This document shows, one piece after another, positions 50,346 through 51,969 of a stretch of 64,000 nt of DNA; position 1 is the first letter of the stretch; each line of letters begins with the position of its first letter. This DNA is from Rhodobium orientis. Lineage in GTDB: Bacteria; Pseudomonadota; Alphaproteobacteria; Rhizobiales; Rhodobiaceae. The stretch spans positions 18,744-82,743 of the forward strand of contig NZ_NPEV01000004.1 in NCBI RefSeq assembly GCF_003258835.1. Direction: 5' to 3'. The position numbers and the translations under genes are program-made. The notes beneath the pieces are model-generated. The model saw only the letters and a list, made by a program, of their open reading frames with translations. It did not search any database and was not told the DNA's origin.

Positions 50346-50540
50346 ATGTTTTTCGACGAAGAGGGTCCGGAAAAGACGCCGAGGGCCGGCCACAGGGTCG
50401 GCGAGGACATCTCGACGCTGTCGGTGGCCGAACTGACAGAGCGGATCGGCGAGCTGGAGGCGGAAATCGGGCGCCTGAAAGATGCCATCCTGGTTCGGGA
50501 GGCGACCCGGTCGGCGGCGGACAGCGTCTTCAAGAGCTGA
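50346..50540 (+). CDS. DUF1192 family small protein
   Basis: This 64-aa protein has MFFDEE at the start and VGEDISTLSVAELTERIGELEAEIGRLKDAI, the DUF1192 signature of a short coiled coil. AAGGAGG at about 50332-50338 gives a good ribosome-binding site for the ATG at 50346. The family has no established function. It lies upstream of the sRNA candidate and rcdA, a gene order I recall from related genomes. Confidence 0.85.
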   Translation: MFFDEEGPEKTPRAGHRVGEDISTLSVAELTERIGELEAEIGRLKDAILVREATRSAADSVFKS

Positions 50541-50832
50541 AGCAACATCGGCATCGGAACTTTGTTAAGGCGCCTCTTCAGGGTCGACCTCTGTGCCGAT
50601 TCGGGATTGATTCGGTTGTTTCCGTCCGTTGCGGTGCAATTTGCCGTATTTTTTTCGGGAAAGATCCGGCGGGGATTTTTCCCTATCGGTTTGATACGTA
50701 TTTAATACTTGAAAGCTTGCATTTTCCACATTTATCCAGTGGTTTCTATGTGTATTTACCGGGTTCAGGGTTGCGAAAACGGCCTCATAATTTAACATTG
50801 TCTTTAAGCTTGGTTGGGGTTTTTCCGGTCTA

Positions 50833-50847
50833 TTAACCGACTATTAA
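50833..50847 (+). promoter_or_regulatory. CtrA-binding box
   Basis: TTAACCGACTATTAA is a perfect TTAA-N7-TTAA match to the CtrA recognition sequence. It covers the -35 position relative to a plausible -10, TACTAA, at about 50862-50867, the arrangement of CtrA-activated promoters. The likely start of transcription is near 50873. Confidence 0.6.
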
Positions 50848-50872
50848 GCTTTCTCGGTGTTTACTAAGTATG

Positions 50873-50963
50873 TCCAGTCATCTGGATTGCGAGTGGCTCC
50901 TGTCACTCTGTTTGACGCCTCCCTGTTAACTTCCTTAGAGCCGCCGCGAGCGGCTCTTTTTTT
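50873..50963 (+). ncRNA. Candidate CtrA-controlled small RNA with anti-Shine-Dalgarno loop
   Basis: The predicted transcript of about 90 nt is made of three parts. First is hairpin 1, TCCAG-TCAT-CTGGA (50873-50886). Second is hairpin 2, GAGTG/CACTC (50891-50895, 50904-50908), whose 8-nt loop shows CTCCT. A single-stranded stretch with CCTCCC (50918-50923) follows, and the third part is the terminator hairpin (50937-50957) with a T-run. Exposed CUCCU/CCUCC motifs are the targeting feature of many trans-acting sRNAs in the Rhizobiales. It has no ORF. It could alternatively be an attenuated leader of rcdA. The start site is inferred. Confidence 0.55.
50937..50963 (+). terminator. Strong orphan intrinsic terminator
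   Basis: A perfect 8-bp stem AGAGCCGC (50937-50944) / GCGGCTCT (50950-50957) with a CGCGA loop is followed by seven T residues. The nearest upstream gene ends about 400 bp before it, so it most likely ends a non-coding transcript. Confidence 0.88.
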
Positions 50964-51116: not shown

Positions 51117-51659
51117 ATGAAAGACAAGAATTCGACGAATGACCCCGGCTACGCCGAACCGGTCCCGTTCGCGGAGCGGCTGGCGAACTCGGAGAATTTC
51201 CTTTCGCTGTTCCGCGAGGGCATGGCGCTTGTCGAGGAATCCGCTGCCTATCTCGACAGCGAGGGCCGCGAGGAATCGAAATCGCTCGATCGTGCCGCCT
51301 CGCTCACCTACGCGACGGAATCCATGCGCCTGACGACGCGGCTAATGCAGCTCGCCTCCTGGCTGCTGCTGCAGCGGGCCGTCAACGAAGGCGAGATGAC
51401 GCACGAGCAGGCCGGCGAGGAAAAGTCGAAGGTGCGCCTCGACAGCCTGTCCTCGCCCTGCACCGGCCCGGGGTGGGAAATGCTGCCGGTGCGGCTGAAG
51501 GACCTGATCGCCCGCTCGGTCCGCCTGCAGGAACGCATCCGCATTCTCGATGCGGCGATCTACAAGAAGACGCCCACCGAACCGGAGGCGGCGACCAGCA
51601 ATCCGGTTGCCGCGCAGCTCAGCCAGCTCGCCAACGCGTTCCGCCAGGGCAGCGACTGA
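51117..51659 (+). CDS. rcdA: RcdA-type ClpXP protease adaptor (DUF1465)
   Basis: This 180-aa all-helical protein matches DUF1465, the family of Caulobacter RcdA, an adaptor that helps ClpXP degrade CtrA. Conserved parts are PFAERLANSENFLSLFREGMALVEESAAYLD, ESMRLTTRLMQLASWLLLQRAVNEGEM and the region from LDSLSSPCTG to VRLQERIRILD. The C-terminal 25 residues are disordered, as in RcdA. The start is the ATG at 51117. It is preceded by the CtrA box and the sRNA candidate, consistent with CtrA control of rcdA. A bidirectional terminator follows. Confidence 0.85.
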   Translation: MKDKNSTNDPGYAEPVPFAERLANSENFLSLFREGMALVEESAAYLDSEGREESKSLDRAASLTYATESMRLTTRLMQLASWLLLQRAVNEGEMTHEQAGEEKSKVRLDSLSSPCTGPGWEMLPVRLKDLIARSVRLQERIRILDAAIYKKTPTEPEAATSNPVAAQLSQLANAFRQGSD

Positions 51660-51753: not shown

Positions 51754-51969
51754 CTAGCCGAGGAAACCCTTGTACTTCTTCTTGAAGCGCGACAGGCGGC
51801 CGCCACGGTCGATCAGGTGCTGCTGACCGCCGGTCCAGGCCGGATGGGTGGTCGGGTCGATGTCCAGACGCAGTTCGCCGCCCTCATAGCAGGAGCGGGT
51901 CTCGAACTCGGTGCCGTCCGTCATCACCACTTTCACGGTGTGGTATTCCGGGTGGATGTCCTTTTTCAT
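51754..51969 (-). CDS. rpmE: 50S ribosomal protein L31
   Basis: This 71-aa protein starts [19 protein letters not shown]. It contains [18 protein letters not shown] and ends FKKKYKGF, diagnostic of bL31. Only one cysteine (in RSCYEGG) remains in place of the usual CxxC zinc pair, so this is the zinc-independent form. It forms part of the intersubunit bridge in the ribosome. It is transcribed alone and divergent from an ABC exporter gene. Confidence 0.95.

Follow-up and report, generated by a model that had tools for sequence, protein, structure and literature searches.

The interval between the DUF1192 gene and rcdA of Rhodobium orientis contains a perfect CtrA box followed by potential RNA hairpins, and it raises the question of which gene the box serves, rcdA or a small RNA (sRNA) gene of its own, and what the product of such a gene would do. 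The interval lies within a 64,000-nucleotide stretch of contig NZ_NPEV01000004.1, the whole of which was analysed (the window). The box, the -10 sequence, the two hairpins, the free CCTCCC and the terminator that the original prediction had described are all present in the sequence, and the locus is laid out as follows.

50346-50540, + strand: DUF1192 gene (PF06698), the conserved upstream neighbour
50833-50847, + strand: CtrA box TTAACCGACTATTAA (TTAA-N7-TTAA), a perfect match, its centre ~33 nt 5' of the presumed RNA start
50861-50867, + strand: -10-like TTACTAA (TACTAA at 50862-50867), kept in both other genomes of the genus compared
50872-50963, + strand: putative sRNA of ~92 nt, RF02356 BjrC1505, from a covariance-model match and fold, with a presumed start
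50873-50886, + strand: stem-loop 1, TCCAG-TCAT-CTGGA, with double-sided changes in 6/6 pairs
50891-50908, + strand: stem-loop 2, with CTCCT in its apical part and double-sided changes in 5/6 pairs (56 sequences) or 6/6 (64 sequences)
50908-50927, + strand: core CTGTTTGACGCCTCCCTGTT, delimited by column conservation, with the anti-Shine-Dalgarno CCTCCC at 50918-50923; proposed mRNA-pairing seed
50937-50963, + strand: intrinsic terminator, stem 50937-50957 and T-run to 50963, from terminator scan, fold and covariation
51117-51659, + strand: rcdA (DUF1465, PF07323), the downstream neighbour, probably outside the sRNA unit
51754-51969, - strand: L31 gene, after rcdA

We think it quite probable that this is a free-standing BjrC1505 gene, activated by phosphorylated CtrA, whose product would be a trans-acting anti-Shine-Dalgarno sRNA that represses mRNAs, with those of solute-binding proteins among its likely targets. 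The gene, its structure and conservation, the box and the terminator are established by sequence comparison; CtrA activation and anti-Shine-Dalgarno repression constitute the most likely working model.

An Rfam 15 scan of the whole window gives a single match, to RF02356 (BjrC1505) at 50826-50963, which is full length and, at 90.3 bits, exceeds the cut-off of 50; the RNA is therefore a member of a catalogued family and not a new one, and the hairpins, core and terminator are all present. The matched region takes in the promoter as well as the RNA. Other Rfam families in a local scan are below cut-off, with suhB at 21.3 (cut-off 41) and ncS54 at 19.8 (cut-off 43). BjrC1505 was reportedly first described by Madhugiri et al. 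in 2012 and is reported as a short transcript in B. japonicum. The family match, terminator, fold and covariation together support the original proposal of an independent sRNA gene of about 90 nt, here a predicted transcript of ~92 nt.

The covariance-model search across the order that was proposed at the outset finds RF02356 in 245 of 297 genomes (52 have no match), and under strict filters the family of Mesorhizobium amorphae has it in 81 of 101 genomes, the query genome counted, with 20 lacking a match. S. meliloti and Agrobacterium presumably fall in this same search family; NCBI taxonomy places Mesorhizobium under Phyllobacteriaceae. A class-wide sample has matches in 30 of 289 genomes, three of the 30 from the window's own order and two (L057 and L059) that look false by eye. 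None of 14 control genomes matched RF02356, and as Caulobacter vibrioides is presumably among them the richest CtrA data set is not usable here. Four genomes (G060, G024, G017 and G049) have two RF02356 matches each, possibly gene duplicates. A search of the genome collection with the core pattern gave 110 stretches, 80 of them listed, and those listed include Mesorhizobium, Pseudochrobactrum, Hoeflea, Nitratireductor, Methylobacterium, Microvirga, Pleomorphomonas, Thalassospira and Tistlia; L211, L213 and L220 (a mycobacterium, a cyanobacterium and a MAG labelled Gammaproteobacteria) were taken as spurious. When ten core-pattern or more distant loci were scanned with Rfam, six were at or above the RF02356 cut-off; the Thalassospira locus had no RF02356 match and the Tistlia locus a weak one.

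Folding of the segment 50873-50966 (-32.9 kcal/mol, z -3.9) yields both hairpins and the terminator, along with a short third pairing. Covariation was scored in 56 divergent sequences, hand-picked from 79 selected ones: over the three helices 92.3% of cells are paired, and 17 of 20 pairs show changes on both sides; none of 500 shuffles scored as high and slid versions are 38-53% paired. Omitted from this alignment were rows that the extraction had shortened, the spurious L220 and eight rows that were complete yet highly divergent, and because omission of the last group favoured the structure the count was repeated with them, giving 89.9% paired cells and 18 of 20 pairs in 64 sequences (0/500 shuffles; slid versions 43-59%). 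The consensus fold, in which only stem-loop 2 and the terminator appear, leaves the core single-stranded, and single-sequence folds often place weak pairing around it. Outside the order the core and terminator are largely kept and both hairpins are altered in sequence, and some families within the order diverge too.

The folding signal also bears on the extent of the Rfam model, which folds its positions 1-46 into hairpins. Across 78 loci the mean z is -2.94 for stem-loops 1 and 2 and -4.02 for the whole RNA, and is -0.19 for the 50 nt that precede it. Because these 50 nt give no folding signal, the first ~46 positions of RF02356 are most likely promoter sequence modelled as RNA.

Conservation is concentrated in the core. 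Among 93 loci of the order, gaps not counted, identity is 96-100% in columns 50908-50926 (CTGTTTGACGCCTCCCTGT) and 83% in column 50927, and the single-stranded GAYGCCTCCCTGTT is nearly invariant (motif GAYGCCUCCCUGUU). The occurrence of CCTCCCTG is not unusual within the window (one found, 2.8 expected); it matters because relatives keep it unchanged. The original prediction had taken the CTCCT loop of hairpin 2 as a key element, and here it does not hold, since the loop differs between families (CTCCT in many loci; TTTC, CACCTG or TTGGAG in others) and it is the single-stranded GAYGCCTCCCTGTT that is nearly invariant. The box, loop and terminator had been expected to be conserved together in relatives; box and terminator are kept and the loop is variable. 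Within the genus, in a comparison that includes a more distant third genome, the box, TTACTAA, the RNA and the terminator are the most conserved parts.

Three minor variations in this region may be recorded. Many of the loci L388-L416 have a TTGGAG-like hairpin-2 loop, which resembles a Shine-Dalgarno sequence and could pair with their own CCUCC core. Hairpin 2 of the window (50903-50905) is one C shorter than in two relatives of the genus, GTCACTC versus GTCCACTC. L137 and L140 have a divergent form with the core TTTCTCCCTGTTTTACC, yet retain a perfect CtrA box and rcdA downstream.

In the model that we favour, phosphorylated CtrA would occupy the box over the -35 position and switch the gene on, giving a transcript that would start near 50873 and end at the terminator near 50963. 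The two hairpins would expose the single-stranded core GACGCCUCCCUGUU, which could pair with Shine-Dalgarno regions of the CAGGGAGG type and block translation, as AbcR1/2 and alphaR8/MmgR/SisA do. Such repression by occupation of Shine-Dalgarno regions is expected by analogy, because alphaR8 and AbcR sRNAs carry anti-Shine-Dalgarno seeds. The sRNA, possibly with Hfq, would thus provide a repressing arm for CtrA, and its probable targets would include mRNAs of periplasmic solute-binding proteins.

Candidate targets were sought as open reading frames (ORFs) of at least 100 aa beginning 4-10 nt after CAGGGAGG, with CAAGGAGG as control pattern and duplicates counted once. In the organism's own genome, 7 of 17 ORFs behind CAGGGAGG are solute-binding proteins by Pfam (four DctP, and one each of Peripla_BP_4, NMT1_3 and Peripla_BP_6) versus 2 of 16 behind CAAGGAGG, for which the control comprised 30 loci and 14 stretches (one-sided p 0.07); an eighth ORF behind CAGGGAGG is DctQ. 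A second genome (G145) gives at least 4 of 25 versus 0 of 16 among the families listed (one-sided p 0.12), from 30 of 40 seed matches and all 23 control matches; 25 of 51 and 25 of 43 Pfam families were listed and four ORFs were assigned by their sequence starts, so that a weak match could be missed. Pooled, the two genomes have 11 of 42 behind CAGGGAGG and 2 of 32 behind CAAGGAGG (two-sided p 0.032), with neither genome significant alone. The signal for solute-binding-protein mRNAs is weak and suggestive only, and it is not specific to the BjrC1505 RNA because AbcR and alphaR8 carry CCUCCC-type seeds too.

The closest parallels are with two known groups. The suhB/MmgR/alphaR8 RNAs (RF00519; SisA-D in Caulobacter) share with this RNA the 3' module CCUCCCU..ACUU..GCCGC terminator and an anti-Shine-Dalgarno seed. 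Their members act through the 10-mer UUUCCUCCCU, however, whereas the window RNA has GACGCCUCCCUGUU, and no common motif precedes SisA-D, whereas the present family keeps a CtrA box. Membership of RF00519 was considered and rejected on the sub-cut-off suhB score and the absence of UUUCCUCCCU. AbcR1 and AbcR2 (alphar15) use anti-Shine-Dalgarno seeds to silence transport and metabolic mRNAs, and the target class predicted here is similar; their seeds, CUCCUCCC and UUCCCCUC, and their regulators, LsrB and RpoH1, are unlike those of the window RNA, in which neither seed was seen, and no Rfam match to AbcR at gathering score was found in the window. The organism's own genome also has a separate suhB/alphaR8 gene (L387, contig C175; 67.5 bits), and hence two or more sRNA genes that carry a CCUCCC-type module.

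The original prediction had also stated that CtrA-controlled sRNAs with CUCC motifs are known in the Rhizobiales. This needs correction, as the available text on AbcR1/2 and MmgR does not describe them as CtrA-controlled, and the CtrA-linked cases found are CcnA and, in Rhodobacter capsulatus, a set of 18 sRNAs that are uncharacterised (mentioned in PMC5928217). CcnA of Caulobacter crescentus is CtrA-linked but is 182 nt long, lies at the replication origin and acts on ctrA and gcrA. EcpR1 (SmelC291) and GspR of Sinorhizobium meliloti are rhizobial sRNAs that target cell-cycle mRNAs and are encoded at other loci; identity with EcpR1 was rejected because EcpR1 lies downstream of divK-pleD (PMC4414408) and the window RNA between DUF1192 and rcdA.

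It is unlikely, we believe, that the RNA is real and CtrA-linked but, instead of pairing with ribosome-binding sites of mRNAs, binds a protein, serves as a decoy for Hfq or acts as a sponge that takes up another sRNA. The long and nearly invariant single-stranded stretch would fit an RNA or protein partner as well, the stem-loop 2 loop is TTGGAG-like, and so Shine-Dalgarno-like, in most of 36 further loci (see below), and sponge RNAs against anti-Shine-Dalgarno sRNAs do exist, CrfA being one. The CCUCCC of the core, however, has the same sense as the AbcR and alphaR8 seeds and is thus not complementary to them.

The promoter is conserved along with the RNA. The 64-kb window, searched on both strands, has a single exact TTAA-N7-TTAA, and 100 dinucleotide shuffles have none. 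Its conservation was counted in 156 non-redundant loci, obtained from 204 candidates by reduction for similarity and upstream length, as the best match in the 70-nt segment that begins 110 nt and ends 40 nt upstream of the core: 79 are perfect, 70 have one mismatch, six have two, and one, the spurious L220, has four. A box with at most one mismatch is thus present in 149 of 156 loci, against a shuffle background of 1.2% perfect and 11% with one mismatch (12% together) and against 19 of 155 downstream control windows (five perfect and 14 with one mismatch). Not entered in the count were L045, L049, L057 and L059 (two short, two false-looking), L054, which lacks a core by the pattern, and 15 pattern loci excluded by a rough check for a terminator, although one is visible by eye in most of them.

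Because the RF02356 model includes the promoter, most of these loci were partly selected for it, and loci found by the core pattern alone, which were not, were therefore also counted. A box with at most one mismatch is present in 68 of 77 (42 perfect, 26 with one mismatch), spurious matches included, the 77 being those of the 80 listed core-pattern loci with enough upstream DNA; four of the remaining nine are spurious or have no terminator. After a second, likewise rough terminator filter the figure is 52 of 57 (33 perfect, 19 with one mismatch), 19 of the 80 having been dropped by that test, many wrongly, and four cut by locus or contig ends. All of 36 further loci, mostly from the Mesorhizobium family, have the box with at most one mismatch, 32 of them perfectly, and 35 have rcdA downstream; they comprise 29 of the 30 best-scoring family matches (the 30th, L255, is the query genome), five of six other loci, and L137 and L140, added by hand.

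Within the 93 order loci 35 boxes are perfect and 89 have at most one mismatch in any of the eight letters; under a narrower mismatch rule the same loci yield 35 and 60, respectively. The half-site columns are T99 T99 A70 A97 and T91 T98 A100 A82 (per cent), and only the first letter of the 7-nt spacer is well kept (C, 91%). The -10 region has a column consensus of approximately TATNACT across the order loci. Upstream of the box, at 50792-50807, a second two TTAA half-sites stand 8 nt apart, and these are found also in the genus relative L066.

The conserved box lies over the -35 position, as placed from the presumed RNA start. CtrA-activated promoters usually have a box at about -33 and, besides it, only a -10; this, with a sigma-70 scan that finds no independent site at this promoter, makes it quite improbable that CtrA represses it and that the RNA is made when CtrA is absent or unphosphorylated. 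On the other side, a box over the -35 could equally block RNA polymerase, and minC is repressed by CtrA in S. meliloti according to PMC5928217.

Does the box belong to this RNA or to rcdA? As had been noted for the window, rcdA is downstream, and on the same strand, in 91 of the 93 order loci, and DUF1192 is upstream in 72. The spacing is informative. The distance from box to core has a standard deviation of 6.2 nt over 149 box-bearing loci, whereas that from core to rcdA has one of 82 nt and ranges from 126 to 594 nt (126 loci, distances below 800 nt only), and that from DUF1192 to core one of 135 nt (92 loci). In 20 of the 149 box-bearing loci tblastn finds no rcdA downstream, although a few of these loci are truncated and the search could have overlooked a divergent RcdA. 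The next ORFs in several of them look unrelated by eye (sulfhydrylase-, dehydrogenase-, thioesterase- and Hsp20-like), and several retain upstream a quinone oxidoreductase like that of the window, or DUF1192. The fixed box-RNA spacing, the variable spacing to rcdA and the 20 loci in which rcdA was not found indicate together that the box belongs to the sRNA, in agreement with its original assignment to the sRNA gene, and by these sequence criteria box and RNA are independent of rcdA.

The same data weigh against read-through from the box into rcdA with the hairpins as a leader element or attenuator, a role that had been suggested initially and that we now regard as very unlikely. It draws on the constancy of gene order, on the published reading of CtrA motifs at rcdA as rcdA regulation (PMC2877005, PMC3616915 and PMC10469942) and on the direct activation of rcdA by CtrA in Caulobacter, as stated in PMC4433202. 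Against it, a strong terminator sits between box and rcdA, the link to rcdA is inconstant in presence and distance, and pairing between the core and the start regions of rcdA is not above expectation (mean z -0.41, with z below -2 in 5 of 91 loci; a rule selected the start codons, and for the window it took one upstream of 51117). In S. meliloti, moreover, rcdA is unchanged on CtrA depletion (PMC4433202). An rcdA attenuator is thus not supported, and a separate CtrA-driven sRNA gene remains the preferred reading. The feedback onto CtrA by way of rcdA that had been proposed is conjectural.

This assignment has consequences for how CtrA sites near rcdA are read. CtrA has mostly been studied as a regulator of protein genes. 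RF02356 is functionally obscure, and its conserved likely CtrA site suggests that CtrA may act on messages through an RNA; with the box kept in 149 of 156 loci at a distance steadier than that of the neighbouring genes, the RNA would be part of the core CtrA output. We advance tentatively, as a possibility that we lean slightly against, that an old and nearly order-wide sRNA is a direct output of CtrA across the Alphaproteobacteria, that it represses nutrient-uptake mRNAs and so couples the cell cycle to feeding, and that the CtrA site attributed to rcdA in Rhizobiales is the promoter of this sRNA. Searches of the open-access literature found no CtrA site, target or mechanism for BjrC1505 and no paper linking it with CtrA; the RNA is already known, and what appears to be new, within these searches, is that its promoter has a conserved CtrA box, that this promoter is independent of rcdA, and that the CtrA site near rcdA is to be assigned to the sRNA.

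Several published observations concern CtrA and rcdA. CtrA motifs have been predicted upstream of rcdA in Rhizobiales (PMC2877005; PMC3616915), those of agrobacteria lie farther upstream than in Caulobacter and rcdA there has several start sites (PMC10469942), and rcdA of Hyphomonas neptunium is not CtrA-regulated (PMC7200025). ChIP-seq in S. meliloti places CtrA at the rcdA promoter region and yet, puzzlingly, depletion of CtrA leaves rcdA unaffected (PMC4433202). A CtrA-driven sRNA in the interval upstream of rcdA could explain these rhizobial findings, among them the occupancy without an effect on rcdA.
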